Assembly (NCBI GenBank): GCA_027484165.1
Contig: JAIXWH010000124.1
Coordinates: forward strand, 1-33,842
Reading direction: 5' to 3'
Length of the DNA: 33,842 nucleotides
Origin: Chitinophagaceae bacterium
Lineage (GTDB): Bacteria > Bacteroidota > Bacteroidia > Chitinophagales > Chitinophagaceae
The position numbers and the translations under genes are program-made. The notes under the pieces are model-generated. The model ran no database searches. It saw only the letters and a list, made by a program, of their open reading frames with translations, and was not told where the DNA came from. Of the stretch, positions 11,901-29,535 are shown piece after piece. Each line of letters begins with the position of its first letter. Positions within the stretch are counted from its first letter, which is position 1.

Positions 11901-14900
11901 TCTTTCTTTGAAATCAATTTCTTTGTTTTCTCTATCCTTTCTCTCTAAAATACCGGTATGTTCAGATGCATAAATACGAGGCGATAAATTTCTGTTATAC
12001 ACCAACTGATAATAATTTGGTTTGCTCTTCTGAATTTGACTGTATGTACCTATACAGGTATAATCCAAGCATTTTGTGTGTATTGAAATAGTATCGGAAG
12101 CTGCAACAAATAATTTGGAACCACAGGTATCACAAACATGATTGACTACTTTATTTTCAATCATTATTATGTTTGGCTCAATAGCATAATTTTCTATTTC
12201 TTCGTCACCAAGCTTATTCATTAAACCGATAGCAGTAAACGTATCTATCAATTTTTTATAGAAATCATTTACTAACTCATGATAGCCTGAAGCTAAGGGA
12301 AACGACTTGAGGTAATAACTCCTATACCAATTGTTGGCTTTGGTATATGTAGAATCTAAAAGGCCTCTGCCATGCGCTTGCGTAGTTAACAATCTGGGAA
12401 ACCTTGAACGTTGCCCAAACATTTTATTGAGGAAATGTCTATTGTCTTTACTCCAATTCAAATCCCACAATTGCAATGAGCCGTTTCTGAACTTACTTAA
12501 ATATTCATGGTCAATACCCCCTCTTGTTCTCACTCTGTGTAAAATACCATTTACAAAAGGCAATAAATCTTTTTCCTCAATCATGGCAAGGTTATTCTGA
12601 TTCAGCCACTCCTGCATAGCAGGGAATACTGCCCTGATTTTTTCTTCATCAAATTTCACAGCAGAAGCACCTGATTTTTCGAGCGTTCTTCCTATCATTG
12701 CATTGTAACCAAATTCAGATAAAACTTCCCAATACATTCGGGTATCAAATTCTTTTTTGAAAGCAGGAATGAATTTCTTTGCAGCATCACGGTAATCAAT
12801 ATCAATATCTGCCTTACCATGATAATCAGCAGGAAAAAAACGATAATAAAACGCTTCTTCTTGATTAAGGCCTGTTGAATCCGAATGATTCTTCCAATAT
12901 TCTGTGAACTGATTTTGCAAATCTGAAATACGAACAGGAACTTGATTTTGATTAATTATTTTTTGCAAGGATGCCCTGAATGTAAAACGGTAGTTTCTTG
13001 CTTCTACAAAACCAGCCTGATGAGCAGCATCCTGTACACTATTGGTAAAAGCTAATATTTTACGAAATTTTTCCGGTCTTGGGTCAAGGTCTGATGCCAA
13101 TACCTGGCTAACTGTTATGGAAGATAATGTTGCAACCCTGGTACCAATAATACCCATTGCATTTTCGGTATTACATTCCGGGCAGATATGCCTTGCCTTC
13201 GTTTCCTTTAACTTCCTTACTGCATGTATTCTTATGGTATGTTCACTTTCTCTTTCATGCAAGCTCATATCAGCCACATGCATCCAGTCATTTATTTGGT
13301 TGTTGGGTTCATACTCTTCGATATGCTTGTGGTTAGGTGTATTGATGAAATAAATATTCTTATGGTTACTAAAAAAGTACTCATATACCTGATTGGGATC
13401 ATAAAAGAAATGGTTCTTGTTGTCATCTTTTACGCCTAACCAGCCGCTTGCACCGCACTCTCTACAATAATATGATGGCAAGGCTTTAGGGTCATATTTA
13501 TCACCTACTTTATCTTTCCATGAGAATTTTGGCTGCTCATTTATTTCTCTCAAAACACCACTCAATTCCCTTACCCAAATTTGAATTTGTAAATAGAGAA
13601 ATGGGAATTTTTTGGTGTCACCAATCCTTGCTTCGCTAATTAAAGCCAATAATGAATTGATTACTTCTTCTCTTGGGCTTAATTCATTATCAGCATCCCA
13701 CTCTGCTAATCTTTTGAAATCAGGATTGATGTCTGCCAATTTTTTAAGTAGTACATCAAGTTTTACAATGCTGCTACTTGTTAATGAAATTAAGTCTTTC
13801 ATCAACTTCAACTTCTTTAATTCTTCGCCTAACTGAACTTCATCTAAACTATCGGGCATTTGCCATAAGCGTTTTTGCCGGGCTATATAATTTGAGTAAG
13901 TTTCATTTTCTCTTAGGCGACTTTCCAGTAATCCAATCTGACGTGGTATATATTTTTCCAAACTATCATCCGGCAAATCAAAAAAATCATTTACCAATAC
14001 CCTATTTTCTGTAATGATGGCTTCCTTGTCAAAAGGTTCACCAAATACTTTTTCGGCATATTCAGTAAGTAGTTGAATTGAATCATCACCTGAACCAATA
14101 GTTGCAGAAGTACCGACAGCACAAACCTGCCCTTTAGCAATGCCTAATTTTAATTTTAATCTGCGGATTAGATTTGCTACATCTGTGCCCTGAGCTCCAT
14201 CATAGGTATGCAATTCATCCAATATTAAGAATTGGAGTAAGGAAGGATCTTCTAAATTATAGTTCCAAAGGTTGTGATAATTATTGCGCAACAAAGCATA
14301 ATCCAACATTTTGAAATTGGTTAATAATATATCAGGAGGATTCTCAATTATTGTATCCCTGTTTTCAATGATGTGATTTTCACCCATTTCCTTTGGGAAC
14401 TTTTTCTTATCTTTTCCCTCTCCTATAAACAATCCTGCGGTAATTTTCCCTTTTAATCTGTCATCGCCCCAAATGGTTTCTGCCAAACGCTTAGCTTGGT
14501 CAGTTGCAAGGGCATTCATTGGATAAAGAATAATCACCTTTATACCTCTTCTACCTATATTTTTATAGCAGTGGTCTAATATTGGGTATAAAAAACATTC
14601 TGTTTTACCAGATGATGTGCCTGTTGTAACTAAAGTAGATTGGGGTTTATGATTATCTTGGGTAGTTAGCCGTTTGTATGCCTTAAATTGATGGTCATAA
14701 GGCGGAAAACCCGGAGCAATTTGCAATGGAATGATTTCATCATCGGTTGCTTTTACAAATGGCAATTTCAGTGAAACATAAGGCCCTTTAAAAATTCCAT
14801 CTTCCGCATCGGTTACAAACTTATAAAATGCCTCATGCAGGGCTTTATCTTTAAAGCCAAAAGTGGATTTTAGATATTCCAGAATAGAATGTTTTACTTC

Positions 14901-14924
14901 ATACGCTTGTTGGAGTGGTAGCAT
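8928..14924 (-). CDS. Giant DEAD-box/DUF1998 helicase (DruE/DrmA-DrmB-like) with possible nuclease-like C-terminus
   Basis: 1998 aa. The SF2 core has Walker A TTGTSSGKTE (about 100-109), DELH (236-239), GTSATIGS (271-278), ATSTLEMGIDIG (about 1018) and QRVGRAGR (about 1048). Several Cys pairs (near 485, 579, 930, 1338, 1354 and 1466) suggest zinc ribbons. A DUF1998/MZB module follows: YDNIPGGTGYLEKL (about 1575) and CSCKAKGKDGCYRCIYTYAN (about 1611-1630). Residues 1743-1822 (SDFYI, KGIAIYLDGYTFH, DDLKKR, IISWSLTW) resemble a degenerate Vsr/PD-(D/E)XK-like segment. Architecture and size fit DruE-type helicases of Druantia and, as one chain, DrmA plus DrmB of DISARM. It probably translocates on invading DNA. 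It lies 8 bp downstream of the coiled-coil gene in one operon. Confidence 0.9.
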   Translation of the reverse strand: MLPLQQAYEVKHSILEYLKSTFGFKDKALHEAFYKFVTDAEDGIFKGPYVSLKLPFVKATDDEIIPLQIAPGFPPYDHQFKAYKRLTTQDNHKPQSTLVTTGTSSGKTECFLYPILDHCYKNIGRRGIKVIILYPMNALATDQAKRLAETIWGDDRLKGKITAGLFIGEGKDKKKFPKEMGENHIIENRDTIIENPPDILLTNFKMLDYALLRNNYHNLWNYNLEDPSLLQFLILDELHTYDGAQGTDVANLIRRLKLKLGIAKGQVCAVGTSATIGSGDDSIQLLTEYAEKVFGEPFDKEAIITENRVLVNDFFDLPDDSLEKYIPRQIGLLESRLRENETYSNYIARQKRLWQMPDSLDEVQLGEELKKLKLMKDLISLTSSSIVKLDVLLKKLADINPDFKRLAEWDADNELSPREEVINSLLALISEARIGDTKKFPFLYLQIQIWVRELSGVLREINEQPKFSWKDKVGDKYDPKALPSYYCRECGASGWLGVKDDNKNHFFYDPNQVYEYFFSNHKNIYFINTPNHKHIEEYEPNNQINDWMHVADMSLHERESEHTIRIHAVRKLKETKARHICPECNTENAMGIIGTRVATLSSITVSQVLASDLDPRPEKFRKILAFTNSVQDAAHQAGFVEARNYRFTFRASLQKIINQNQVPVRISDLQNQFTEYWKNHSDSTGLNQEEAFYYRFFPADYHGKADIDIDYRDAAKKFIPAFKKEFDTRMYWEVLSEFGYNAMIGRTLEKSGASAVKFDEEKIRAVFPAMQEWLNQNNLAMIEEKDLLPFVNGILHRVRTRGGIDHEYLSKFRNGSLQLWDLNWSKDNRHFLNKMFGQRSRFPRLLTTQAHGRGLLDSTYTKANNWYRSYYLKSFPLASGYHELVNDFYKKLIDTFTAIGLMNKLGDEEIENYAIEPNIIMIENKVVNHVCDTCGSKLFVAASDTISIHTKCLDYTCIGTYSQIQKSKPNYYQLVYNRNLSPRIYASEHTGILERKDRENKEIDFKERPKYNSLNTIVATSTLEMGIDIGTLNTAINNSVPPLTANFLQRVGRAGRTSGSALITNFAQSKAHDLFYYGEPKDMMEGEIATPGCYLEAKDILYRHFLAYCLDNWSSADPKKNSIPGRLISLQLSRADLSAPEFLANRIISFIKAKEKFLLTEFTEFYKPDLIDTKALDNLKSFLMEEGFYLRLKAVFTKLKDEYKYLSQTIKEIDSAIKLLPNDEERKGLESEKKALWGLKRLLDKRSILEHLTNVGLLPNYAFPETGVTLNAWVKSNKAKASDNSPTDKQFEIVRSSMSAIRELAPDNYFYSQGFKFAISGLNTYDWKDVGTLLVKRFCSNCDHIADKVTSTEAICPKCGDASWASDKNQHIFVKLSGVKSVNFRDKSSLDDSSDDRDSNIYRVSKHLKFDSKSFQGAWGMKEIPFGIEYVKNVDIIELNLGLSSAVNANKVIINQHEDVPHHGFVTCKQCGKSSSKFNQRDYKFHYGYCKHKDREYNGIKDDVFEEVFLFREIKTEALKVLLPVQEFESEATINMFKAGLELGLKKYYKGNPQHLSIINYSEYNAKNSRFDKYLVLYDNIPGGTGYLEKLFTPADFTTVISKAYEAIRDCSCKAKGKDGCYRCIYTYANQYTQDELSRAKAEILFKKIVDKSDEWETYTTGLGALTSNGQIEESELEDRFIRSLRNHLQNQNPQDFKFEDFIENGIVNYKFKITSGDYSFYYVIRPQFELGPTNGVKYNTRSDFYISLSSIEKDGIAIEDDGILSSVKGIAIYLDGYTFHATEENCRFFDDLKKRVAIVESNSIISWSLTWSDIEKFDAIEKENDNQSKEFKRDSLFIDKIKYRSSVDALRQILGNACLNDSLFTCKNSFERLIWLLSNPLEVKSRNKKIGLMLALHQQQFGTPSTDNDIIDEFLNDPLKIIDNSLMAKDRTNGNFYVLPEVFIIADFSTLKVAVKISDLSVKSSIVVNNITGTLDKQTWERFWQLYNLIQEMPQTK

Positions 14925-14932
14925 TAATGTAA

Positions 14933-16564
14933 TTATTTATTTGCATCAAAAAATGCCTTTATTAATACCTTGTCTTTTTTAATTTTAAGTAGCTTATCTT
15001 TCAATCCAGGTTCACTGTCTATTTTCATTTCCAGTATTTCGAAAGTTAAATCATCATTTTTTCTTGGAAAGCAATAGCCTAAAAATTGAAACCAATTTTT
15101 CTGCTTTGCTTTTGGAAGTTCTTTCAAAAGATAATTTCTAAAATCTTGAACAGTTAATACCTCTTTAACTGAACCTGTTTCTTTTATTTCAATAAGATCA
15201 ATTTTATCCAAATCATTCTTGATTTCATTATTATTGTTATCGCTATCATTACTTTTATCATTTACCTGAACTGCTGTTTTTGCGCTTACTTCATATATTA
15301 CAATTGGCTCAGAAACTTTTTCATGGAGGTTAGATATAATTACGTTGTCATTTTTTTCAATTTTTGCTATTCCTCCCTCTTCAGTTTTGTTAGTATTTAT
15401 ATCCAAGCCCGCGCGTGTCTCTTCTTGCTTTAACACTGCTATTTCTTGCTCGGCCACTTTTCTTTCCAACTCCTTCTTTTTCTCAATAACAGCTTCTTCT
15501 CTAATTTGATTTTCTATTTTTTCGGATTTTTTACTTTGGGTTGACTTTAGCAAAGGAGCATTCGACAATCTATGTAACCCTTCATAAATATTTTCAAATG
15601 AAAAAATATATCCAAGCAAAGACATTACAACAGCAGCAGTCTTATTATCTTCACTTATCAACAAATCAATCTCCTTGTTGAGTAAATCAATGTTATTATC
15701 ATGCTTATTGAGAAAGGATTTAAAGGCAAGAAAGAAATAGGACACTTTGAATATATTTATTCCTGTGTAATCTTTTGAAATTAAATCAATCATTTTCTCA
15801 TAGCTTGATTTAAGTTCATCATCTTCAATCGAAAGGAAATCCTCATAAGAAGCCCAATAGGAATTATTATTAATTTTAGATTTGTATTTAATACTCGATT
15901 TATAGTATGGCCCATTTGTAAACACTTCTTCAGGTTTATCTAAATATTTAATTGCAATTGCACCAACTTTACAGATATGCTCAATGTTGCCATCTGGAAT
16001 GTAAGAAGGCGTTTTATTATATGCTACTAAATGGTCTAAAAAAGTAGTTAATTTTTGAGATTTATTTTTATCAATTAAATTTTTCTTAACTGCTGCTTCA
16101 ATAGCTAAATTAATTTCTTGATTTATGATAACATCAAGATTAAAATGAGAAAGTATTTTTCCTGAAGTATTTTTCCTGAACTCCATTGAACGAATAATTT
16201 TCAACTCTTCAATTCCATTTTCAAATACAGGATATTCTACCTTGAAGTCATCACTAATTTTACCACTAAGAAGTTGGCTTCCCATCTTTGTTAAAGGGTA
16301 AATACAAAGAATTGAATCGAATGAGAGAAGAACCCCATCATGAAACTTAATTTTACTTTTATCTACTTCTAATATTACTATTTCATGGTCTTGTTCAAAT
16401 AAAGGAATAGCTGTATTAAATAATTTCACCACCTCCTTTAAATCAGATTGGAGCATCAACTTAAGACTCTTAACTGATTGGTCAATAAACTGGTTGATAT
16501 CGATCCTTATTTGATTGTATTTATATAAATACGTAAACTTGTTTCTTTCTATTGCTACTATCAT
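14933..16564 (-). CDS. Unrecognised 543-aa protein with central coiled coil
   Basis: I do not recognise a family. Residues 1-340 look like a mixed alpha/beta globular region with many long helices. Residues 350-395 are a charged, Lys/Glu/Ala-rich coiled coil (IREEAVIEKKKELERKVAEQ). Residues 400-470 are low-complexity, acidic and Asn/Asp-rich. A small C-terminal domain (about 475-543; VQDFRNYLLKELP, WFQFLGYCFPRKND) looks folded. The layout suggests two folded ends joined by a flexible linker, fitting an adaptor or sensor. It sits 12 bp after the UvrD-like gene and 8 bp before the giant helicase gene, so it is almost certainly a component of the same system. No signal peptide or membrane helix is seen. 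Confidence 0.8.
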   Translation of the reverse strand: MIVAIERNKFTYLYKYNQIRIDINQFIDQSVKSLKLMLQSDLKEVVKLFNTAIPLFEQDHEIVILEVDKSKIKFHDGVLLSFDSILCIYPLTKMGSQLLSGKISDDFKVEYPVFENGIEELKIIRSMEFRKNTSGKILSHFNLDVIINQEINLAIEAAVKKNLIDKNKSQKLTTFLDHLVAYNKTPSYIPDGNIEHICKVGAIAIKYLDKPEEVFTNGPYYKSSIKYKSKINNNSYWASYEDFLSIEDDELKSSYEKMIDLISKDYTGINIFKVSYFFLAFKSFLNKHDNNIDLLNKEIDLLISEDNKTAAVVMSLLGYIFSFENIYEGLHRLSNAPLLKSTQSKKSEKIENQIREEAVIEKKKELERKVAEQEIAVLKQEETRAGLDINTNKTEEGGIAKIEKNDNVIISNLHEKVSEPIVIYEVSAKTAVQVNDKSNDSDNNNNEIKNDLDKIDLIEIKETGSVKEVLTVQDFRNYLLKELPKAKQKNWFQFLGYCFPRKNDDLTFEILEMKIDSEPGLKDKLLKIKKDKVLIKAFFDANK

Positions 16565-16576
16565 TATATTTGATTT

Positions 16577-17743
16577 TTAAAATAATATTTCAGTATTGTC
16601 ATTATTTGAAATTCTTTTTGGTTGCATTCCATTTAAAAAATTATTTAACCCAGGATAAATTGAACCAGTATAGCTAACAAACAAACCTGACTTAGATCGA
16701 GATAATGCAACTAATAATAATGAATCTTCATTTGAATGAATGTACATTTCATTATTAACCATTGGTAAATAAACATAGTCAAAATCTAAACCTTTTGCAC
16801 TATGATAAGTAGTTATAACTACCTTATTATCTCTGTCAGCCTCAGTTAATGAGCCAAATCCATTTCCTACATAAACAATTGGGATTCCAATGTTCTTTAA
16901 ATGATCATTCATTAATTCGTATTTTGGCATTCCCCTTTCGTTTACCCTTTCCCATTTCTGTTTCCCTTCTATTTCTGCAATAAAGTTTACAAATTCGCAT
17001 ATCCCATCATGCTCACATATAAGTATTGCACTTACTTCTGATGCTCTTAATATATTAGTTTGCTTAATTTCTTTCCAGCAAAACCTTATTTCTTGTTCAT
17101 TGTCATCTGAATCGAATTCGTAAAGTTTTATTTCAGTATCTTCCTTTGCTATGTTTGGCATGTCATTCAACATAGAAGGAAATACTTTCTTTAGTAGACT
17201 TAATACGGATTCCGTTAACCTATATATAACACCCAATTTTTTCTCAATTGGAACAATTGTATTTTGAATTTCTTTTGAAGTTGCTGGACGTTGATTCCAA
17301 ACAGGTACACTATTGTAAATCGACTGCTCTGCATCACCTGCAATAATTAAATTTTCACAGCTCGATTTCATTAAATTAATAAATTCTATTGGTAGATCCT
17401 GAACTTCATCACAAAATATTGCACCGTACTTCGCACCGTTATTTCTAATTCGCCATTCTAATTGATAAATAGTAAGTACAGGTATCGATTTCCCATTTAG
17501 TTTCGGAATTTGCTTAAGACCAGTCTCTAATAAATCTACCAAGGCCCTTGTAAAAACTACTACACAAACTTTTGCATTAGGCTTTTTAACCAAGTAGTCC
17601 GCCAATGAATGTAATAGCAGAACGGATTTGCCACTACCAGCATGCCCCTTTATCCAAATGGGTTTATTAGTTATTTTACCAATTTCATCAATTACTTCAA
17701 CTTGGTCTGGACCCAATTTATCTTCGGTTATCATCCATTTCAT
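16577..17743 (-). CDS. Small UvrD/Rep-like superfamily 1 helicase
   Basis: 388 aa. Motifs in order: Q-motif-like LGPDQVEVI (10-18), Walker A GHAGSGKS (33-40), Walker B/motif II CDEVQDLP (111-118), motif III IIAGDAEQSIY (about 133-143), motif V TTYHSAKGLDFDYVYLP (about 311-327) and motif VI LLVALSRSKSGLFVS (about 341-355). It is much shorter than UvrD or Rep (about 670-720 aa), so the 1B/2B insertions must be minimal. All ATPase motifs look intact. Probable role: an ATP-driven DNA translocase or switch within the defence operon. It starts 5 bp after the methyltransferase-Hsp70 fusion gene. Confidence 0.88.
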   Translation of the reverse strand: MKWMITEDKLGPDQVEVIDEIGKITNKPIWIKGHAGSGKSVLLLHSLADYLVKKPNAKVCVVVFTRALVDLLETGLKQIPKLNGKSIPVLTIYQLEWRIRNNGAKYGAIFCDEVQDLPIEFINLMKSSCENLIIAGDAEQSIYNSVPVWNQRPATSKEIQNTIVPIEKKLGVIYRLTESVLSLLKKVFPSMLNDMPNIAKEDTEIKLYEFDSDDNEQEIRFCWKEIKQTNILRASEVSAILICEHDGICEFVNFIAEIEGKQKWERVNERGMPKYELMNDHLKNIGIPIVYVGNGFGSLTEADRDNKVVITTYHSAKGLDFDYVYLPMVNNEMYIHSNEDSLLLVALSRSKSGLFVSYTGSIYPGLNNFLNGMQPKRISNNDNTEILF

Positions 17744-17748
17744 AATTT

Positions 17749-20301
17749 CTATTTTATTTTAATTATATTTTTCGTTGGTGTTTTAAAGCATTCTAAAGCT
17801 TCTTTTTCATAGTTTAACCCTATGATTTCGCATTTCAATTCTTGATCTGGAGCAATATAAAAAATTAATTTCGATGCAGATATATTTGCAGGAACAACAA
17901 AATATTTTTTGTAATCATTATTCTCTTCTGAGTAACAAATTATAGTCGTTTCAATTGAAGAGAGAATTCCATCGATTTCAATTTCCACCTCCATAGAAGG
18001 AACGCTGATGCCATTTTCAAAAAGTGTCATAGATTTATTTTCTCCTTTCAAATAAATATCATGTCCTAAAATTGGCGTAATGATATTTTTACCAAATGAG
18101 TTAAGAACAAAAGATTGTAAAGCAACACCTCTTGAAACTTGTTCTTGTATATTATCTGAAATAAATATTTCTGAACCTCTAAAGTAATTAGACACTTGAT
18201 TTTTGATGTATGGATTACGACCGCCACCGCCAGAGACTATTACTTTATCGATTAAAGAGATGTCAATTTCTGCATTTTCAATCGATTTATCTATTGTGTC
18301 TTTTATTCCATCAATATCAGCAGTTCCTTCCCAATAGGACTGCATAATACTGCTAAATTCTTTAAACGATATACCGATACTATTGATACCGATTAATCTA
18401 AGATTTTCTGTTGCAGGTATTGACCTATTTTCATCTGATGTACTTATGGTTGGCAATTTGTAATTTATTGCTGCATCAGTTATGATGTCTTTGCACAATT
18501 TAATTTTGAGCTTTTCGCACAAGCTTATTAACTCAATCCGATATTGTTCATTTATGAGAGTGGTTATTCCGGAATTTTGAATGATTAAATTAGCAATAAG
18601 TTCATCAATTAGATTTCCACCTATATTACCGAGTCTCAAAACAGAAAGCAATTGGGATGTGAAACCTTCTTCGCCATTTTCAGCATGTAAAATGGAAACA
18701 TCTACTGTACCCGCACCTAAATCCAAAACCAAAATATTCTTTGGTTTATTATTTTCTACATAAATATTTTGCTCAAACAAGTAATTTATTAACGCTGCAT
18801 TCGGTTCTTCAATAAATGGAGTGTCTTCGCATTCTATTCCTGCATTTATTAAGCATGTTTTCAATGCAGTCTTTTCTTTGGAGGGAAAACCAGCAGGAAT
18901 GCTAATAGAATACTCAACATCTACTGGAAGATTATTGATTTTCAGATACTCAAAAATTTGGTCTTTTAAATATTTAAAAAAATAAGTAAGACCCTCTTGT
19001 GCGTTAGATATTTTAACAATAGCATTATTTAATAACATAGAATTGGGGTATTCAACATTTTCAAGGTTGCCGAGATTCTGCTTAAATGAATGCCAAGTAT
19101 TTTTACCTAACTCCAAAAAGGGTTTATGATCTGCCGCATGCACTCCAACCATGAATTGCCCATTAGAGATAGATATTACAGTTGGCACCAATGGACTGCT
19201 TGTTGTTGAGCCCAAATGGTCTTTCTGTTTAATAGGAATTGTCTTTATTTTAATTTTCCTATCAACCAATTGTGCAGTACTAATTACCGTTGATGATGTC
19301 CCAAAATCAATACCAATAAAAATCTTTTTATGAATAAAGTCATTAGCGTCAAGATTTTTAAAATTTAAAGGCCTATAAAGTGCATTAAAACCAAGTGCTG
19401 CATAATCAATTGACTTTTCTATTATTCCTTTGGAAAGAATAGAGTAATCATAACTCAGATTTTTACGTGGTATTAATCCATCTGTGCCTACCAATAAATT
19501 TTGAGCAATTATAGGTGATGGTCTATGATGAACTGATATCAATGACCTTGAACTTGGCAGCGATAATGTTGATTTAATAAATTTAGGAAGAAAATCATCT
19601 ACCAAGTATTTCTCTAAAGCTTTAATTGTTGGCCTGGCTCCTGACGTTAAGTCTGACATTAGGAGATAGGAATTACCAGGCAGATATTCAAAGAGTAATT
19701 TTAAATTAATTTTTAAAGCCTGGAGCTTTGAAGTAGCAATCTCATTCAAACAATTTTGAATGACCAATAAATCACTTTTTTCAATAATTGATTTTACTTT
19801 TTTCGTTTCTACTTCAGACACTAAGTCAAATTGTACCGACCTCCAATTTACATTAACTTTTCTGCTATTGATAGCCTCTATTAAATTCTCCCGAACTATT
19901 GAATGACTATAATTCCAAGTTGACGCATTGATATCCAATATAGTAATATGTATAAATTCAGCATCAGTGCAATTGTTAAGTATGTACTTTATGGCACCGT
20001 ATGCCTCTGAACCTGGACCCCCTCCTATAAAAGTTAAGTGAACCTCTTTTTTACCTTTGAAAATATCAGGAACTTCTTCAATAAATATTTTGTAAATCAG
20101 CTGATAATAATGGGGTAGATATGTGGCTAAATAGGCCGCTTGAATATCTATTTCTTCATATGGAACAAAAACAGGACTGTTTCGATAAGCTATGCGTAAT
20201 GATTTAACGGACTTTTGCAAAGATTGCAAATAGCTCTCTATTCCAGTATTGGCAGGAATATGTTTTTTTAACCCATTTAGTATAGCATCATAAATGTCCA
20301 T
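17749..20301 (-). CDS. Fusion of a SAM-methyltransferase-like domain to an Hsp70-type ATPase
   Basis: 850 aa. Residues 85-260 look like a Rossmann methyltransferase: motif I LTFIGGGPGSEAYGA (89-103), acidic strand ITILDIN (119-125) and FDLVSE (158-163). A linker (260-325) leads to a full Hsp70/actin-fold ATPase: phosphate-1 IGIDFGTSSTVI (329-340), EEPNAALINY (498-507), phosphate-2 LVLDLGAGTVDVSIL (524-538) and adenosine motif VIVSGGGGRNPYIK (687-700). The last 115 residues are beta-rich and may be a reduced substrate-binding domain; the helical lid of DnaK seems absent. The ATPase looks active; the methyltransferase target is unknown. It starts 3 bp after the AlkB-like stop and ends 5 bp before the SF1 helicase. 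The frame is continuous, so this is a genuine fusion rather than two genes. Confidence 0.88.
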   Translation of the reverse strand: MDIYDAILNGLKKHIPANTGIESYLQSLQKSVKSLRIAYRNSPVFVPYEEIDIQAAYLATYLPHYYQLIYKIFIEEVPDIFKGKKEVHLTFIGGGPGSEAYGAIKYILNNCTDAEFIHITILDINASTWNYSHSIVRENLIEAINSRKVNVNWRSVQFDLVSEVETKKVKSIIEKSDLLVIQNCLNEIATSKLQALKINLKLLFEYLPGNSYLLMSDLTSGARPTIKALEKYLVDDFLPKFIKSTLSLPSSRSLISVHHRPSPIIAQNLLVGTDGLIPRKNLSYDYSILSKGIIEKSIDYAALGFNALYRPLNFKNLDANDFIHKKIFIGIDFGTSSTVISTAQLVDRKIKIKTIPIKQKDHLGSTTSSPLVPTVISISNGQFMVGVHAADHKPFLELGKNTWHSFKQNLGNLENVEYPNSMLLNNAIVKISNAQEGLTYFFKYLKDQIFEYLKINNLPVDVEYSISIPAGFPSKEKTALKTCLINAGIECEDTPFIEEPNAALINYLFEQNIYVENNKPKNILVLDLGAGTVDVSILHAENGEEGFTSQLLSVLRLGNIGGNLIDELIANLIIQNSGITTLINEQYRIELISLCEKLKIKLCKDIITDAAINYKLPTISTSDENRSIPATENLRLIGINSIGISFKEFSSIMQSYWEGTADIDGIKDTIDKSIENAEIDISLIDKVIVSGGGGRNPYIKNQVSNYFRGSEIFISDNIQEQVSRGVALQSFVLNSFGKNIITPILGHDIYLKGENKSMTLFENGISVPSMEVEIEIDGILSSIETTIICYSEENNDYKKYFVVPANISASKLIFYIAPDQELKCEIIGLNYEKEALECFKTPTKNIIKIK

Positions 20302-20304
20302 TTC

Positions 20305-20931
20305 TTATAGCTTAATAGTTCTAAAAGTTAAATTAATTCTTGGCTCATGTATTTTCTTTTGAACAGGTATTTGGTGTAACCAATGATGTTGCAATGCACC
20401 TTTCATAATTACCAAAGAACCTGAGGATAGTTCAATTTGAAGTTTTTGATCAGGATCTTCTTTATGCTTTAAATCAAAACGTCTTATTGCTCCTAAACTA
20501 ACGGATGCAATGGTTGGATTTTCTCCTAATTCTGGTTCATCATCAGAATGCCAGCTCACTTTATCATTTCCATCTCGGTATAAGTTTAGCAAAACACTAT
20601 TGAAATTTTCACCGGGTAAGAAATGCTCTATTACCCTTTTTATATCCATGAGTTCTTTTGTCCATGGCTCTGGATTGCACATGATACCTGAGTATTTATA
20701 ATTAAAATCAGGATAACCATACCAAGCAGTTTTTCTGGGAACAGGATAAGTCTTACCATACATTTTGATTTCCTCTTGTCGCCAATTGATGTTAGATAAC
20801 AAAGCATCATAATAAAATACTGCTTTTTCAGATGGCATAAAGTTGCTCATTAACCAAACTTCCCCATCCTTTAAATTGAATTTCTCAAATTCCCTTTCTT
20901 TCGATTTGTTTTCTTGATTGAACAATTCCAT
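20305..20931 (-). CDS. AlkB-type 2-oxoglutarate/Fe(II) dioxygenase (ALKBH2-like)
   Basis: The ATG at 20931 gives 208 aa. The frame extends back to 21027, but those 32 residues overlap the methyltransferase gene and look unlike the family. Iron ligands are H128 and D130 (SWHSDDE) and H186 (HHWLHQIP); 2-oxoglutarate-binding arginines are R198 and R204 in EPRINLTFR. YRDGNDKVSWHSD is typical of the ALKBH2/3-like bacterial branch. The expected reaction is oxidative removal of N1-methyladenine and N3-methylcytosine from DNA. It starts one base after the methyltransferase stop, implying translational coupling. In this operon it may repair off-target alkylation made by the methyltransferase or act on modified phage DNA; both are inference. 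Confidence 0.92.
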   Translation of the reverse strand: MELFNQENKSKEREFEKFNLKDGEVWLMSNFMPSEKAVFYYDALLSNINWRQEEIKMYGKTYPVPRKTAWYGYPDFNYKYSGIMCNPEPWTKELMDIKRVIEHFLPGENFNSVLLNLYRDGNDKVSWHSDDEPELGENPTIASVSLGAIRRFDLKHKEDPDQKLQIELSSGSLVIMKGALQHHWLHQIPVQKKIHEPRINLTFRTIKL

Positions 20932-20932
20932 A

Positions 20933-23900
20933 TTATTCAGTTTTATTTTTGTCTTTAAATATTTTCTCAAAATGCTCCCACGCCACCTTATAATTCTCCA
21001 CTCTATCACACTTATCAAAAGGAGCATTGTAGGTTATTTTTTTGTTCTTATATAATTCACTTTTAGTGATTGTATGCTCGTAAGTTTCTCCCGCTTTTAG
21101 GTTGCGGATGGTTTCCCATACTGGCCTATCTACACCAACACCAACCAAACCTTTACTGCAAGTGAATATAATATTACCCTTGGTATCGTACCAGGTATCA
21201 TCTTCGTTTTGTTGCAGTACGGGGAACTGTACATTGTAAATGAGTATTAACTCCTCTAAGGTTAAACCTAATGCCATGGCGGTAATTACATCAATCTCTA
21301 TTAATGCCTGCCTCCGCTCAAACCAATTGCGTAAAGGAGTACTCCATTGCCAGTTGGGGGTGAGGGTATTAAATGATTTTAACCTTGTATCTTTTTTGCT
21401 CCAGTTGTCTACTTTAAAACCTTCTTGCCAGCTTTCTTCCCATAAGGATGAATAATATTTATTTAGGCAGTTAAGTTGAAGGGTACGATTGAATAATTGA
21501 AGTTTGTATTTTTCTTCGACACCTAATGGAAAGGCAGATAAACGACTATCTGTGAGATTAGATGCACCTACTGTTTTTATAAAAAAGTCTAAAACTATTG
21601 AAGATGCAACCGCAGCAAGTTCAATAAGACTGTTATTGTCTTTAAATACAGAAGAGATAACACCATTTGTATGGGTTGATTTTGACGGTAAAATAGCAAC
21701 TGTCAGTGTTCGTTCACCTGCTTGGCTCAACATCTTTCTAAATCCTACTTTATAATAATCTATCCATCGGTCATATAAATCATTTCCAAAATTATCCTTA
21801 GAGCCTGTTTTAAATCCACGAATTAGTTCTGGAAAGTTTTCACTGTTTAAGTTAGGGGTATAATTAGTTCTTGGGATAAAATCTTCATCTGTTTGTTTGT
21901 GCTCAATGGTATCATAATCTGCCTTTTCAATGCAAATTTCTCTTGGTGTTTTGTATAACGGATTTGATACAAAAAAATGAGGCCCACTATAAATCATTTC
22001 GTACTTGGCAATATTTGGGATTAATGTACTTCGTTTTATTGTCCCGGAATCCACATCATTTGTTTCATGCCAACCTTCTGTAATTTTATAATTATAGTTT
22101 TTTATGGATGTTTTAAAACCACTTAGTTTTTCTAAGACAGAAATTATTGATGATGAATGAACAGATACTAATTTGGCTGTTTCTCCAACATTTGAGTTTT
22201 CAAAAGCATTCGCCAATACTTTTAATCTTGTATTATTAAAATATACTAATCTTTCAAAATGTGGTTTAATATTCCAGATAAAACCATCTTCTCCATCACC
22301 TTTAACTTTTATCCCACCACAAATTCCATTGCCATCATGTATAAAGCAGCCATCAATTGTAGAAGGATGAAATAAATTATTGATTGAATAAAAAGAAATT
22401 TGAGATTTATTTCCAGAATAAATCTGGACTCCATATTTTTCACGATGTGCTACTTCTGCAAATAAGTTAAAAGCATTTTGGAATTGAAAATGGTATCTTA
22501 ATCGAGGATACATTTCCATACGCAAGGATTGACCGTTAGGGTCATCGTACACTCCCTCAGGGTGTAATAACCCCATAAAACCATTTTTACTAAGTAAGCT
22601 AAAACCATTTTCCAATACACATTTGTATAAATTGGTTTGTTGTCCTTTTAATAATGGATAATTTTGCCCAGCATTCATAAATACAGCAATACATTCTGTC
22701 CCCAACATCTCATTGTAATACAATTCCTTTAGCTTTTCATCTTTAAAAAACTCAGCTTGTAATAATCTCACTTGTGGTGCTGTTACGCTTTTAATTTCTA
22801 CCTCAGGGAACTTTTCAGCAATTATTCCTTTTTCTTCAAATGTAAATTTCAACCAAGGCGGATTACCCGCTATTAAATCAAAACCACCTCTTTCCCAAAA
22901 CACATCTAAAAATTCAAGTTGCGGATGAAAGAAAAAGTATTTGTTGGCCAATTGGCTTATCATGGCAAGCCTTTGGTTGTTATCGAATAAATCTTTGCGG
23001 TTTGTGTATTCTACCACAGCCTCTGCAAATACAGTTGCATTATCCGTTTCTTCACCTAAAGCCAATTGTTCACCACCGGTATAAAACAATTTGGGTTGTG
23101 TACCTACCGCAATAGATGGTACTTTTTTCTTCACTGCTTCATTGGCATCTACTGCATTTAGATCCAGCTCTAAAATGGCTGCAATGTCTTGCCAGTATTG
23201 TTGTCGGTTGGGCAAATCTTTGGCATCCCGTAGATCCCAAAACCAAAGACTACACCAATAATCCATTACCATCTTCAATTTAAAGTAGGGAGCATTGTGT
23301 CGGTTTCTTTGGTCGGCCAGTTGCTCTTTTTCATCATAACTTTTCAAATTCAATACTCCAGCTCCAGAAACACCAAATATTTCTTGCTTATTGGCAGTTT
23401 GAATATTGATTGTTCTTTGAAAACGATAAAACTCTGCGAGTAGTTCATCTATTTTGTCGCAAATCTTTTTTAATTTTTCAACTTCAAATTTTTTCAAAGG
23501 CTCACAAAAATTTTTCTTCCATTTTGTCACCCCCTTACTTTCAGTATCATATTCCGCCTTGAGCATTTTAATGCTGGTAGAAGGTGCCATGTTTTTGTCG
23601 GGCAGTAAAAAATGATATATTTCATCAGATTTCCGACCATGTTTTATTTTATCATACTCCTTGTTGGGCTTAAACTCCAATTGTCTTGGTGCTGTGTCCC
23701 ACCATTCTTTTTTCTTTGGCACTCGTTTATCACGACCTCGAGCATCTTTTACAATTTCATCTTCTTCAATGAGCTCTTTTTCTTTATACACTTTCAACCA
23801 AGCACCCACAACCGCATTCCCAACACTTAAACGATTACTGAAAAAAGGCGTTTCCATATCCTTATGAATCACATTCAACCAAAGAGATAGCTTTCCTAAT

Positions 23901-25828
23901 TCAATGGCAGTGGGGTTTAAATCCACGCCATAAGTATTATTGGTGGCGATATACGCTTTTACTTTTTGAAGTTCTTCCTTAAATAAATCAGGAGCAACTC
24001 GTTTGTTTAATTCTTTTTGTCTGTATGTGATGTAAGCGTCTGCCAACTGATTGATCATTTCATTGTGGAAGGCAGCAGCACCCATTGCTGGTTCTAATAA
24101 TTTCAATTCCAACAACTCTGTTGCTTTCATTTCACCCTTATCTAATTTTTCCAAAATAGGTTTAAGGGTATATTTAACTGTGCAGCGAGTAAGAACTTCC
24201 GGAGTATAGTATGAAGCAGATTTTTGTCTATCACGACCACTGAGGCGGTAAACAAAAGTCCCTTTTTTAGTAATGACATCATGCCCAGCACTATCTTTTA
24301 GAATTTCATTTTCTTGAAAATCATCTCTACGCATGCGAGGCACTAAGTATGTGCCTTCGTTGGATGCATCTGCTTTGTGAACTTCTATATAATCTTGCTC
24401 TGCATAAAAACCTCTATAAGCCAATAAACTTTCATATACAGATCCTAACTGATTGATACCAAGGTTTGCATAGGATATACGGCCTCTTGCACGATTACGT
24501 TGTTGTTTACTGAGTGATAACCTGCAAATAATATCTTGCCATACTTTATTGCGAAACTTTACTTTGTGCAGATGATGCAACTTTGAATTATTGAACAAAG
24601 GAGAATCGATGTGCCTAACCCTGAAGCTTTTGTTTTGACCATTTTCTTTTTCTCTGTAACCAGAGCTTAAAAGATAAAAGAGTTTGTCCAATGATTCGTG
24701 AAAAAAATAACCATTCAAACTGGCTTCCGAATAAAGTGGCACTTGTTCTAAATCACGAAGCATTTCTAAAGAATAACCCTTGTTGTAAATAGGGTCATTA
24801 CTTGGTAGAATATCTAAATCTTCTCTGCTTTCTGCATAGAAAACAAACAATAACCTATATATGATATTAAGACAGTCATCTTTTATTTCATGTTCAAACG
24901 TATCATCAGTTTCATCAAAAACTTCTTGTAATACATTTTTCTGAAAGTATAAAGCCTCATTTGCCAATGCTTCCACTGCATGTATGATTCCTTCTTTTAA
25001 ATCTTTTGTTACTTCATAAGCCGACTTGTGACTATCTTCATCAAGCTGGTCTAACAACACCATATTGCTTTCGGGTGTTAATGATTCTTTGCTCAACAAA
25101 AAATAAAATAACGCATAATAATTGGCGTTTCTATTGGCAGTTGCTTCGGAGAAAAGTTCTTCTAAATCAAACTGTAAATAACTTCCTCTAAACCATTTTT
25201 CTTGTTCTAAGAGATATATAATATTGCCTGCTAAAAGCAGAATATATTTTGGACGTAGGTGAGGTTCAAACAAAAATAATTCTGAAACCGCCTTATTTAT
25301 AATAACCGGAGAAATCTTTAAATGTGCTTGTACTTGAAAAACCCTGTCCCATTGTGTGCGATGATATTTTTGTGGTGGATTATTTTGTGTTTCGTCTTCT
25401 ACATTATATCGTTGTTCAAACAATCCGTCAGGCTCCGTATCATCTTCTTTAATCAAAGCCTGCATTTCCATTATCATCAAATGCGTTTGATCTCCCCTAT
25501 GCAGAATATGTCTAACAGGAATTACTTCGTTTTCGGATAGATGAAATAAATTGTTGTACTGCGAATGATTACCATCGTAACCCAAGGCATTTAACAAGAG
25601 TGTATGAAATTGATGGCTTTCAAAAATCTTGTCTTTATTACGCAGCTTATCTTCAATAAATAATTGTTTAAAGCGAAAAAATTTATCTTTTAATGGAGAA
25701 ACTCTTTTATTGAAATCTTTGATATCCTCAGCAGCATAGCCCGTTTTACTTAACACCTTTGAAGTGAAGTCTTCATCAAAGTAATTCGATGAAAAGTATT
25801 CGCCTATATTTTGAATGAATTTGATCAT
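20933..25828 (-). CDS. Large N6-adenine DNA methyltransferase (DrmMI/PglX/type IIG-like)
   Basis: 1631 aa. Motif X-like SYYTPEVL (539-546), motif I LEPAMGAAAF (578-587), YGVDLNPTAIELGKLSLWL (633-651) and catalytic motif IV GNPPW (988-992), separated by a long insertion typical of PglX/DrmMI-type enzymes. About 530 residues precede the methylase core, and about 600 follow NPPW, probably including target recognition. I see no convincing PD-(D/E)XK nuclease motif at the N-terminus, so it is probably a methylase only, marking self DNA. Length exceeds usual class 1 DISARM or BREX methylases (roughly 1200-1400 aa). It is 20 bp downstream of the zinc-finger gene and directly followed by the AlkB-like gene. 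Start chosen at the first ATG, which gives tight spacing. Confidence 0.9.
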   Translation of the reverse strand: MIKFIQNIGEYFSSNYFDEDFTSKVLSKTGYAAEDIKDFNKRVSPLKDKFFRFKQLFIEDKLRNKDKIFESHQFHTLLLNALGYDGNHSQYNNLFHLSENEVIPVRHILHRGDQTHLMIMEMQALIKEDDTEPDGLFEQRYNVEDETQNNPPQKYHRTQWDRVFQVQAHLKISPVIINKAVSELFLFEPHLRPKYILLLAGNIIYLLEQEKWFRGSYLQFDLEELFSEATANRNANYYALFYFLLSKESLTPESNMVLLDQLDEDSHKSAYEVTKDLKEGIIHAVEALANEALYFQKNVLQEVFDETDDTFEHEIKDDCLNIIYRLLFVFYAESREDLDILPSNDPIYNKGYSLEMLRDLEQVPLYSEASLNGYFFHESLDKLFYLLSSGYREKENGQNKSFRVRHIDSPLFNNSKLHHLHKVKFRNKVWQDIICRLSLSKQQRNRARGRISYANLGINQLGSVYESLLAYRGFYAEQDYIEVHKADASNEGTYLVPRMRRDDFQENEILKDSAGHDVITKKGTFVYRLSGRDRQKSASYYTPEVLTRCTVKYTLKPILEKLDKGEMKATELLELKLLEPAMGAAAFHNEMINQLADAYITYRQKELNKRVAPDLFKEELQKVKAYIATNNTYGVDLNPTAIELGKLSLWLNVIHKDMETPFFSNRLSVGNAVVGAWLKVYKEKELIEEDEIVKDARGRDKRVPKKKEWWDTAPRQLEFKPNKEYDKIKHGRKSDEIYHFLLPDKNMAPSTSIKMLKAEYDTESKGVTKWKKNFCEPLKKFEVEKLKKICDKIDELLAEFYRFQRTINIQTANKQEIFGVSGAGVLNLKSYDEKEQLADQRNRHNAPYFKLKMVMDYWCSLWFWDLRDAKDLPNRQQYWQDIAAILELDLNAVDANEAVKKKVPSIAVGTQPKLFYTGGEQLALGEETDNATVFAEAVVEYTNRKDLFDNNQRLAMISQLANKYFFFHPQLEFLDVFWERGGFDLIAGNPPWLKFTFEEKGIIAEKFPEVEIKSVTAPQVRLLQAEFFKDEKLKELYYNEMLGTECIAVFMNAGQNYPLLKGQQTNLYKCVLENGFSLLSKNGFMGLLHPEGVYDDPNGQSLRMEMYPRLRYHFQFQNAFNLFAEVAHREKYGVQIYSGNKSQISFYSINNLFHPSTIDGCFIHDGNGICGGIKVKGDGEDGFIWNIKPHFERLVYFNNTRLKVLANAFENSNVGETAKLVSVHSSSIISVLEKLSGFKTSIKNYNYKITEGWHETNDVDSGTIKRSTLIPNIAKYEMIYSGPHFFVSNPLYKTPREICIEKADYDTIEHKQTDEDFIPRTNYTPNLNSENFPELIRGFKTGSKDNFGNDLYDRWIDYYKVGFRKMLSQAGERTLTVAILPSKSTHTNGVISSVFKDNNSLIELAAVASSIVLDFFIKTVGASNLTDSRLSAFPLGVEEKYKLQLFNRTLQLNCLNKYYSSLWEESWQEGFKVDNWSKKDTRLKSFNTLTPNWQWSTPLRNWFERRQALIEIDVITAMALGLTLEELILIYNVQFPVLQQNEDDTWYDTKGNIIFTCSKGLVGVGVDRPVWETIRNLKAGETYEHTITKSELYKNKKITYNAPFDKCDRVENYKVAWEHFEKIFKDKNKTE

Positions 25829-25848: not shown

Positions 25849-26373
25849 TTACTTGTTATATGTTTCAAGATCACGAAATTTTATAAATACTTCTTCACTT
25901 ACAGAGTTATTCATATAGTCGATACCTACATTAAAGAATATTGGCTTATTGATTGAACTCAGGAAATGATTGTATGACTTAGGGAAATTATTTATTAAAT
26001 AACACTTTGTTTCAGCACATGGTATTAGTAATAAGTGATAGAAAAGCGTATAAAATATTTTTGCTCCTGTTAACCCTATTTCTATATCTTCAGATTCATA
26101 TACAATGCCACTTCGCAATAAATAATCCATAAATGCTGCGTCTCTTAAGTTAAAATACACTACTCCATAGGTAGCAAGAACAAAATTATTTGACCTGACG
26201 AATAAACCAAATGCATTTTCAAGATTTTTTTGGAACTCTGACATCAATTTATGTTCAAAAAAAAGCGATATTTTGTTTTTGCATTCAGGATATAAACTAC
26301 AACCAAGATAGTTTCCTACACTAAGAATTTTTAAATTTTCACAACATTCATTTTTATTTATACACGCATTCAT
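25849..26373 (-). CDS. Hypothetical protein with topoisomerase-type C4 zinc finger at the N-terminus
   Basis: 174 aa. The first 35 residues contain C4, C10, C11, C25 and C31; YLGCSLYPECKNKI closely resembles the second half of the zinc finger repeated at the C-terminus of type IA topoisomerases (FLGCxxYPxCK). The usual first CxxC is altered to C-x5-CC. The rest (about 40-174) is helical and not recognised. A single-stranded-DNA-binding role would be consistent with topoisomerase fingers but is inferred. It lies between the SNF2-type helicase gene (10-bp gap) and the methyltransferase gene (20-bp gap), so it is likely part of the same system. Confidence 0.78.
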   Translation of the reverse strand: MNACINKNECCENLKILSVGNYLGCSLYPECKNKISLFFEHKLMSEFQKNLENAFGLFVRSNNFVLATYGVVYFNLRDAAFMDYLLRSGIVYESEDIEIGLTGAKIFYTLFYHLLLIPCAETKCYLINNFPKSYNHFLSSINKPIFFNVGIDYMNNSVSEEVFIKFRDLETYNK

Positions 26374-29224: not shown

Positions 29225-29535
29225 TTGTTTGATGCTTTTATCATTTTTTGTTTCTTAACCAATGTGGTTAAACTTTCATAATAATAGGGCTCATTTCCAA
29301 ATTCATTCTCAATCTTCTGATTTAAAAATTGAATCTGCAACATTCGATATTCCAAATCAAACAACTCAGCTACTGGCTTTAGCATATGCGATTGCACTTG
29401 CCTTTCACCATGCTCTATTTTACTAAGCATTGAAATGTCAATACCCAACTTATCTGCAACAATTTTTTGTGACAGTTTATGCTCCGTTCTCAACTGGTGA
29501 AGGTATTCACCAAAATCAACTATTCCGTGACTCAT
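29221..29535 (-). CDS. XRE-family HTH transcriptional regulator
   Basis: 104 aa. Residues 8-62 form a classic Cro/CI helix-turn-helix (LRTEHKLSQKIVADKLGID, SMLSKIEHGERQVQ). The C-terminal 40 residues are helical and may dimerise. It is the first gene of the defence-like operon and overlaps the SNF2-helicase gene by ATGA. Upstream, a TTGAC-N6-GTCAA palindrome overlaps the promoter, so it is probably the operon's autorepressor, keeping levels of methyltransferase and helicases in balance. Small controllers of this kind are familiar from restriction-modification operons. Confidence 0.9.
   Translation of the reverse strand: MSHGIVDFGEYLHQLRTEHKLSQKIVADKLGIDISMLSKIEHGERQVQSHMLKPVAELFDLEYRMLQIQFLNQKIENEFGNEPYYYESLTTLVKKQKMIKASNK

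Follow-up and report, generated by a model that had tools for sequence, protein, structure and literature searches.

A methyltransferase-like domain fused to an Hsp70 ATPase domain in an ARMADA-like operon of a Chitinophagaceae bacterium

The window, i.e. the whole stretch of 33,842 nucleotides analysed here, carries on its minus strand a run of nine genes that, judged by protein similarity, is ARMADA-like. The run begins with an HTH regulator of 104 aa (29221..29535), followed by a RapA/SNF2 (BrxHII/DrmD-like) helicase of 946 aa that is ArmA-like (26384..29224), a zinc-ribbon-like protein of 174 aa whose Pfam match is below the cut-off (25849..26373), and a PglX/type IIG-like DNA methyltransferase of 1631 aa that is ArmB-like (20933..25828). 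The zinc-ribbon-like protein has a 44% identical homologue in a BREX-type locus (L037), where PglX precedes it and a UvrD-like gene follows. Next comes an AlkB-like 2OG-Fe(II) dioxygenase of 208 aa (20305..20931; Pfam PF13532, 1.9e-35), ALKBH3/ALKBH2-like by sequence; its ORF is open to 21027, and the start at 20931 matches the length found in the related loci L001 and L002 and gives no overlap with the methylase gene. Beyond the fusion gene that is our subject lie a short UvrD-like SF1 helicase of 388 aa (16577..17743), a protein of 543 aa that we call X (14933..16564), and an ArmC-like YprA/DruE-type helicase of 1998 aa with DUF1998/MZB (8928..14924). At the limits used, X could be placed in none of the families of Pfam, PADLOC, NCBIfam or PHROGs, and the matches of its counterparts to DUF6393 (E 0.063, X of L001) and Tubulin_3 (E 0.036, X of L022) are below cut-off.

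The fusion gene, complement(17749..20301), encodes 850 aa from an ATG start. The original prediction had one uninterrupted frame here, and all 850 codons are indeed open, although on the minus strand; frame 1 of the plus strand is full of stops. Residues 1-300 (19402-20301) form a class I SAM-methyltransferase-like domain, residues 301-325 a linker, residues 326-735 (18097-19326) an Hsp70 nucleotide-binding domain and residues 736-850 a lid-less tail at the position of SBD-beta. Homologues of 850 aa, 72% and 71% identical to the window protein, are present in L001 and L002, two metagenome-assembled genomes that are near-copies of each other. Since both encode the same fusion with matching gene order, it is neither a chance product nor an assembly error of one contig. 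Between the window and L001 the 25-residue linker is 80% identical, pN is 0.174, 0.180 and 0.209 for methyltransferase-like domain, nucleotide-binding domain and tail, and the corresponding pS values are 0.729, 0.706 and 0.732; purifying selection acts on all parts of the fusion. The fused form is rare: it turned up in none of 293 other genomes from the family, and a scan whose reach is limited to close relatives shows it, besides the window, only in these two near-identical loci.

That the N-terminal 300 or so residues adopt a class I methyltransferase fold, as originally proposed, is moderately supported: the structural ranking favours it, whereas model confidence is low and no Pfam methyltransferase family reaches its cut-off. 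In a three-sequence AF2 model the domain has a mean pLDDT of 50.8, with 162 of its 300 residues below 50 (single-sequence AF2 of the whole fusion protein gave a mean of 35). Re-ranking of the structural matches put SAM methyltransferases in the first six places, four of which go to a single enzyme, and many other Rossmann folds come after them; the best match to this low-confidence model was histamine methyltransferase (Z 13.9, 3.6 A over 181 residues, 14% identity), with short-chain dehydrogenase and transcarbamoylase Rossmann folds close behind at Z 10-11. The best Foldseek match by E-value to the domain model was a non-methyltransferase. Its nearest known likenesses are Methyltransf_34 (BMT6-like), NAS and histamine methyltransferase: the predicted fold is similar, but the profile matches are weak (best E 0.016-0.09) and lie below the cut-offs of these families. 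Of the two motifs first pointed out, ILDIN is at 121-125 as given, while GGGPGSE occupies 93-99 rather than 94-100. Conservation of motif I in homologues had been set beforehand as a refuting test; in our alignment (A1, which leaves out the 159-aa fragment of L010/L017) G93, G95, E99, D123, Q182, N183 and N186 are invariant in all nine sequences, down to 25-29% identity, and the proline of motif I (GxGxxxE) is kept in seven. Since its glycines and acidic residue are thus invariant, the domain passes that test. The broken copy of L017, outside the nine-sequence alignment, has D at the position of E99. We infer that the domain binds SAM.

The Hsp70 part is matched by Pfam PF00012 at residues 329-735 (E=1.4e-22), and the motifs GIDFGTSST (330-338), DLGAGTVD (527-534) and GGGGRNP (691-697), which we take to be phosphate-1, phosphate-2 and adenosine, are intact, in agreement with what had been predicted. 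In an alignment to the genome's own DnaK, K407, E499, D527 and T532 pair with the catalytic positions, presumably K70, E171, D194 and T199 in DnaK numbering. The predicted absence of a helical lid was likewise confirmed, as the protein stops at residue 850 and has no counterpart of that part of DnaK; in the same alignment the hydrophobic interdomain linker of DnaK is not conserved. The chaperone side of the fusion, as read from the sequence, is therefore incomplete, with no lid and no conserved canonical linker. The tail resembles SBD-beta weakly (hhalign of the tails of six triads with the SBDs of four DnaK-type proteins, E 0.0045, probability 7.7%), and in the window the Pfam HSP70 match goes no further than position 377 of a profile of 599, as against 516 in an unfused sister protein (L035), where it runs through the SBD-beta region. 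The PADLOC model PDC-M61B matches the Hsp70 part weakly (E 3e-6), and the unfused Hsp70s of L023 and L036 gave no PADLOC match at E 0.001. Taken together, the joining of a methyltransferase-like domain to a complete Hsp70 ATPase domain within a defence-type operon is supported.

A search for unfused versions, as had been suggested, showed that both halves occur separately in other loci. In eight of the ten loci with neighbours read, the methyltransferase gene adjoins AlkB on the same strand, and in the other two it adjoins DUF1848 (this count leaves out L020 of G347, with a partial methyltransferase match at E 2.7e-5, and five Synechocystis plasmid records). Relatives of the methyltransferase were found neither in scans of viral contigs nor in a search of phage records. 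Three stand-alone methyltransferases have repair-like rather than defence settings: the next gene in L014 encodes a methylpurine-DNA glycosylase, LexA, O6-methylguanine methyltransferase and an HhH-GPD glycosylase lie 6-9 kb from the gene in L015, and DinB lies about 3 kb away in L016. Genome context suggests that the methyltransferase goes with AlkB and DNA repair, not with protein substrates. In L015 and L016 it directly precedes a UvrD-like gene, and since no Hsp70 is seen among the ORFs read there, Hsp70 appears dispensable for the association of methyltransferase and UvrD. The two genes after the methyltransferase of L013 (346 and 703 aa) were considered as a split UvrD, which Pfam did not bear out.

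The other half belongs to a triad of genes, Hsp70-UvrD-X. Unfused triads are present in L023, L035 and L036, and one whose Hsp70 is fused to HEPN in L022 (Antarctobacter); the N-terminus of a triad-type Hsp70 is empty, a Swt1-like HEPN with RNxxxH (L022, its near-copy L028, and L029; all matches below the Pfam cut-off) or the methyltransferase. In a tree these Hsp70s form a clade of their own apart from DnaK (support 99/98), L035, whose frame is broken by an in-frame stop, being represented by its longer part only. X proteins match each other between window/L001 and L035 (2e-7, 4e-9) and between L023 and L036 (3e-33); elsewhere X is considered the same gene by position only, because those of the window and of Antarctobacter have no BLAST match to each other. 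Searches with X gave no plasmid match and no match in 246 other genomes of the phylum. Some triads adjoin restriction or defence operons, which are ARMADA-like, type I R-M, or PLD-Snf2 with a type IIG methylase; that of L022 has no adjacent defence system, only toxin-antitoxin and IS genes. Several candidates were rejected as triads: the Hsp70s of L024 (Priestia), L025 (Haloplanus) and L030 (a giant-virus-like contig) fall outside the clade and have no UvrD neighbour in view, the UvrD of L034/L037 (G076) is a relative from a BREX locus with no Hsp70 seen, and L026 and L027, two UvrD matches among those listed from viral contigs, are by eye other helicases.

It is therefore highly probable that the fusion merged two modules that also exist separately, the AlkB-paired methyltransferase and the triad Hsp70. 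How it works is a more doubtful matter, and our proposal of an ATP-driven Hsp70 switch, with methyltransferase and AlkB acting on nucleic acid, is tentative; the nucleic-acid substrate, the role of Hsp70 as a switch rather than a folding chaperone, and the role in defence are all presumed. The fusion is part of a cassette of AlkB, methyltransferase-Hsp70, UvrD and X that separates ArmB from ArmC in this ARMADA-like anti-phage operon. Incoming DNA would be recognised and processed by ArmA, ArmB and ArmC, and the ATP state of Hsp70 would be set when it touches its UvrD-X partners or the complex of processed DNA; that state may in turn position the N-terminal enzyme. The methyltransferase and its AlkB partner could then modify bases in nucleic acid, or reverse a modification, whether for telling or protecting host DNA or for handling modified phage DNA. 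Composition, origin and mechanism taken as one account have a slightly less than even chance of being right. We would also suggest, with some reserve and as something rather less than probable, that Hsp70-UvrD-X is an undescribed defence add-on carried on varied restriction or defence operons, whose Hsp70 serves not for folding but as an ATP-driven sensor or licensing switch with an exchangeable N-terminal slot holding nothing, a HEPN RNase, or a methyltransferase that makes a writer/eraser pair with AlkB on nucleic acid.

For the N-terminal domain one may also consider an alternative explanation, namely that it is an effector freed by the Hsp70 switch on infection, in which the methyltransferase replaces the HEPN RNase and harms cell or phage by methylating RNA or DNA. 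The HEPN domain does sit at the same N-terminal place in the three sister loci, and effectors of defence systems usually exchange N-terminal domains on a common core. Nevertheless, we consider this unlikely: stand-alone relatives of the methyltransferase lie beside AlkB, some near DNA repair genes, and are not placed as toxins, no immunity gene was recognised, and the unfused triads do without any N-terminal domain. Another view is that the domain is catalytically idle and serves for docking or SAM-sensing, tying AlkB to the Hsp70-UvrD-X complex. Besides the missing Pfam family, it could draw on the fact that no NPPY-type or other substrate motif was recognised by eye in the domain and that AlkB is its strongest genomic link; the seven residues invariant across distant relatives, from the motif I glycines to N186, are however as expected of a cofactor and active site in use, and idleness seems to us improbable.

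The Hsp70 part might, on the other hand, be a true chaperone device that holds an unfolded or phage protein for the methyltransferase to methylate, an idea from the original prediction, in which the fusion could alternatively sense such a protein or remodel the helicase/methylase complex. The complete ATPase site, the location of the tail and the longer Pfam match of L035 fit such a device, which is nonetheless a very unlikely one given the lack of a lid, the unconserved interdomain linker and the weak similarity of the tail to SBD-beta; among the nine operon proteins there is no match to a J-protein or GrpE, and the recognisable partners are nucleic-acid enzymes. Finally, neighbouring genes may have fused by chance with no joint function. 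In L015 and L016 the methyltransferase occupies the place before UvrD that Hsp70 has in triads, and joining by loss of a stop codon is therefore possible, but the frame has stayed fused at 71-72% identity, its parts are all under similar constraint and the linker is well conserved, which leaves this hardly credible.

The merger of an AlkB-paired methyltransferase with a triad Hsp70 bears on a wider question. Hsp70 domains occur in several predicted immune systems, where they may be chaperones, RNA binders or switches. The window offers an intact ATP site, no lid, sisters that are unfused or differently fused and few partner genes, which make the role of Hsp70 testable. Moreover, a pair of AlkB and methyltransferase that in some genomes lies among DNA repair genes is here tied to an anti-phage operon, which suggests that ARMADA-type defence may have a further layer in which bases are modified or such modifications undone. 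Literature searches found no description of a methyltransferase-Hsp70 fusion or of an Hsp70-UvrD-X triad. ALKBH8 combines an AlkB oxygenase and a class I methyltransferase in one polypeptide and targets the tRNA wobble uridine; the window couples the same two activities, as predicted from sequence, but in two genes and with an ALKBH3/2-like AlkB.

The closest known system is ARMADA, Type II above all, with a BrxHII/RapA-like helicase, a PglX-like methyltransferase and a YprA-like helicase (PMC12458937). Aligned over most of their length, the three corresponding window proteins share 29-38% identity with those of four ARMADA-type plasmid operons (L038-L041), at 507-569 bits for ArmA, 900-950 for ArmB and 786-881 for ArmC; against L040 the RapA-like helicase reaches 35% identity over residues 2-944 (551 bits) and the PglX-like protein 38% over 193-1622 (927 bits). 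We rejected Druantia since the YprA-like protein, for all its 339 bits to DruE models, scores only 109 bits against the DruE of the L040 plasmid, which PADLOC assigns to Druantia III at 2072 bits; the DruE models match L040 ArmC about equally (347 bits), and the PADLOC 2023 matches shown include DruE models but none for ARMADA. DISARM was rejected as well: the DrmD model scores 350 bits where its cut-off is 610, and neither DrmB nor DrmC models are among the best 25 PADLOC matches per protein. Type II has the strict order ArmA-ArmB-ArmC-ArmD, in which YprA is followed by a GajB-like UvrD helicase with a RelE-like domain fused to its N-terminus (PMC12458937), whereas the window has five extra genes in the run (the zinc-ribbon-like gene between ArmA and ArmB; AlkB, methyltransferase-Hsp70, short UvrD and X between ArmB and ArmC), lacks the long UvrD gene ArmD, and has its 388-aa UvrD-like protein before YprA. 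Among the reference operons, L041, ordered C-D-A-B, and L039, into which a 185-aa gene is added, also depart from strict order. The N-terminus of L040 ArmD looks RelE-like by eye, with no Pfam match there. In the main text of the ARMADA paper, Hsp70, DnaK, chaperone and AlkB do not occur (PMC12458937).

Other likenesses concern Hsp70 itself. The N-terminal domains of the sisters L022, L028 and L029 belong to the Swt1-like HEPN family, in whose source paper, in the portion available, the sole mention of Hsp70 concerns the DnaJ domain of Sacsin (PMC3710099). HSP70 is a component of predicted conflict systems centred on GTPases, tubulins or HSP70; GTPases, tubulin-like proteins or GrpE are present there, and the window operon showed none of these. 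The text of that paper does not contain 'methylase' or 'methyltransferase' (PMC7159879). CoCoNuT is a predicted defence system in which CnuD/CnuCD and Hsp70-McrB fusions likewise join an Hsp70-like NBD/SBD to different domains, and its superoperons also hold further restriction systems such as Druantia III (PMC11090510). There, however, the partners of Hsp70 are McrB GTPase or McrC-derived domains, while the nine window proteins gave no match to a McrB-like NxD GTPase in Pfam or among the best 25 PADLOC matches per protein; and CnuD is thought to be poor at ATP hydrolysis (PMC11090510), whereas the ATP-site residues of the window Hsp70 are intact.

The uninterrupted frame of the original prediction is real, although it is read from the minus strand, on which positions 17749-20301 hold a single open frame of 850 codons with an ATG start, and frame 1 of the plus strand has stops throughout the same stretch. 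A scan of genome_contigs (84,980 species), with a sensitivity limited to close relatives, revealed the same 850-residue fusion in two further loci, L001 (72% identical) and L002 (71%), both in metagenome-assembled genomes, whose titles are Flavobacteriales and Chryseobacterium gleum. Since these two are almost identical copies, they amount to one independent comparison. Between the window and L001, pN and pS are 0.174 and 0.729 in the methyltransferase-like (MTase) domain, 0.180 and 0.706 in the Hsp70 nucleotide-binding domain (NBD), 0.209 and 0.732 in the tail, and 0.133 and 0.477 in the linker. Thus, synonymous sites are near saturation (the short linker excepted), while the protein sequence of the fusion has been kept.

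Up to residue 320 Pfam reports no family at E 0.001; relaxing the limit to E 10 adds a single match for the N-terminal part of the window's protein, Methyltransf_34 (E 0.086, below the family cut-off). Stand-alone relatives, at 25-29% identity, were found on plasmids of cyanobacteria as well as in genomes of Bacteroidota. In an alignment of nine sequences (three fused and six unfused), Methyltransf_34 matched three members (best E 0.064) and NAS two (best 0.016), unrelated Pfam families scoring similar E-values across the same nine. The motif GGGPGSE, which had been placed at residues 94-100, lies at 93-99, whereas ILDIN is indeed at 121-125; G93, G95 and E99 are invariant in all nine, as are D123, W129, Q182, N183 and N186, and the proline is kept in seven. 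This pattern is consistent with motif I (GxGxxxE), an acidic residue closing strand 2 and a QNxxN motif that follows strand 4. A model made from three sequences has a mean pLDDT of 50.8 and a pTM of 0.54, and is best over residues 80-215, where strands and helices alternate. Ordered by E-value, Foldseek placed eIF2B first, histamine methyltransferase third and Dot1L fifth, but after structural re-ranking the six leading entries were all methyltransferases: four of histamine methyltransferase (up to 13.9; 3.6 A over 181 residues), xanthosine methyltransferase (11.8) and theobromine methyltransferase (11.3), with short-chain dehydrogenases next at about 11. Neither the model's confidence nor the leading Foldseek entry favours the predicted fold; on the strength of the conserved residues and the structure ranking, we regard the domain as class I methyltransferase-like, with a tentative fold.

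The neighbours of this domain were read in ten loci (the window, L001, L002 and L011-L017). In eight of them the adjacent gene, in the same orientation, is AlkB; it lies upstream in seven and downstream in L017, whose MTase copy is broken. In L015 (9677-11573, minus strand) and L016 (824-2712, plus strand) a DUF1848 gene occupies the AlkB position, and in L012 (17992-19838) DUF1848 is found on the other side of the MTase gene, on the opposite strand; the term DUF1848 was not found in the literature searched. L015 also has O6-methylguanine methyltransferase, HhH-GPD glycosylase and LexA genes 6-9 kb off, and L016 has DinB about 3 kb from the MTase gene. In L014 a methylpurine-DNA glycosylase gene continues the AlkB-MTase run (12335-14442, minus strand), a compact arrangement that appears to be an alkylation repair operon with an uncharacterised MTase-like protein in its middle. 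The domain is present in 5/395 genomes of the phylum, 3/395 of the class and 1/294 of the family, sets that overlap and each include the window's own genome; the other four phylum genomes have it unfused, since their open frames span only 174-350 residues.

The intact Hsp70 ATPase core stands as predicted: Pfam HSP70 covers residues 329-735 (E 1.4e-22), and K407, E499, D527 and T532 align with the catalytic residues of DnaK. In this alignment DnaK's hydrophobic linker has no conserved counterpart, and a helical lid is absent, as had been noticed. The last 115 residues occupy the place of the substrate-binding SBD-beta, with a weak match to it (hhalign E 0.0045, probability 7.7%); since the Pfam HSP70 match of an unfused sister in L035 extends to profile position 516 of 599, the tail likely descends from an SBD.

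This Hsp70 belongs to a triad with a short UvrD-like helicase and a family-less protein X. On the Antarctobacter plasmid pSMS3-3 (L022) the three proteins have 959, 387 and 456 residues, the UvrD being 29% identical to the window's (E 2e-41), and the triad is flanked by toxin-antitoxin and IS genes, not by a known defence system. There the Hsp70 N-terminus is a Swt1-like HEPN domain with RNRHAH (Pfam E 0.0015, below cut-off). The Persicobacter plasmid pPP6 (L023) carries a triad without an N-terminal domain, with cas genes about 8 kb off; its helicase is the nearest tested triad relative (E 1e-20) of a UvrD-like gene that follows the MTase gene in L015 and L016. A UvrD-profile search at E 1e-20 hit 4/326 phylum genomes: the window's own, G159 (L035), G234 (L036) and G076 (L037). 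The triads of L035 and L036 are unfused; the first follows genes for a PLD-Snf2 helicase and a type IIG methylase, and the second has HsdM, HsdS and HsdR next to it on the opposite strand. The Hsp70 of L035 (9288-11729) is broken by an in-frame stop, its remaining frame being open. The L037 locus is of the BREX type; it contains a UvrD-like gene and encodes a homologue of a 174-residue window protein, and no Hsp70 was seen there. HEPN-Hsp70 also occurs on two viral-collection contigs, L028, a near copy of L022, and L029 (Pfam HEPN_Swt1 8.7e-5, below cut-off), where a transposase-like gene lies beyond a break in the Hsp70; neither contig shows a UvrD gene over the stretch available. Three of these Hsp70s thus begin with the MTase and three with HEPN, two cases being independent in each group, and three have no N-terminal domain; among the HEPN forms the full triad is seen in one. 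In a midpoint-rooted tree of 13 Hsp70s, which has some long branches, omits L029 and uses only the longer part of L035, eight triad-type proteins form a clade (99/98) that excludes DnaK, Priestia, Haloplanus and L030; within it, the MTase form groups with L035 and the HEPN forms (99/96).

Hsp70 NBDs change conformation with ATP, SF1 helicases travel along nucleic acid, and AlkB dioxygenases have alkylated bases as substrates. The lid is missing and every recognisable partner works on nucleic acid, which makes a folding chaperone a less likely role for the Hsp70 than that of a switch within a complex bound to DNA or RNA. Nucleic acid is the likeliest MTase substrate, because the stand-alone MTase is tied to AlkB and repair genes. 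The MTase/AlkB pair may protect host DNA, undo phage modification, or make a mark read by the operon.

The operon occupies 29535 to 8928 of the minus strand and, when 20931 is taken as the AlkB start, has no intergenic gap longer than 20 bases; its gene order is HTH, RapA/SNF2 helicase (ArmA), 174-residue zinc-ribbon-like protein, PglX-like methylase (ArmB), AlkB, MTase-Hsp70, short UvrD-like, X and YprA-like helicase (ArmC). Immediately behind PglX, the BREX-type locus of another genome (L037:8721-9263) encodes a 44% identical homologue of the 174-residue protein that separates ArmA from ArmB here (25849-26373, minus strand), so this protein may be an accessory common to PglX-type systems. 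The ArmB-AlkB interval is a variable slot, holding in L001 (7069-9367) and L002 (2844-4022) one or two extra genes (373, 374 and 392 residues; no Pfam match) that the window lacks. Upstream of the operon (31798-33344, minus strand) are a gene of the phage integrase family (Pfam PF00589, 3e-19) and one for a small, excisionase-like HTH_17 protein, so the operon may belong to an integrated element; the window has no tRNA gene. At 5374-6945 (minus strand) a 523-residue protein without a Pfam match is built, by eye, from numerous copies of a short repeat that contains tryptophan.

Among the matches listed, titles and abstract beginnings gave no description of the fusion, the triad, DUF1848 or the AlkB link, within a collection that covers a minority of subscription journals. 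PMC11090510 treats Hsp70-McrB and CnuD, PMC7159879 GTPase-HSP70 systems, and PMC3710099 Swt1-like HEPN, with a single Hsp70 mention that concerns Sacsin. In the main text of PMC12458937, on the anti-phage system ARMADA, there is no occurrence of Hsp70, DnaK, chaperones or AlkB; the paper reports that in E. coli ARMADA Type II loss of any one of the four genes abolishes protection. A YprA relative (E 1e-30) is present in 33 plasmid-collection records, and the four examined (L038-L041) all have ArmA, ArmB and ArmC relatives, scoring 507-569, 900-950 and 786-881 bits against the window; the window's ArmC scores 109 bits against the Druantia III DruE of the L040 plasmid. In all four, a gene of 704-716 residues that is BLAST-related to the window's UvrD adjoins ArmC. 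The order is A-B-C-D in L038 and L040 and C-D-A-B in L041, L039 has an additional 185-residue gene between ArmB and ArmC, and the ArmD N-terminus of L040 is RelE-like by eye only. The window's three core genes match the ARMADA description (PMC12458937, section 5), but it has neither the RelE-UvrD gene nor the strict gene order of Type II, and the operon is therefore ARMADA-like rather than Type II.
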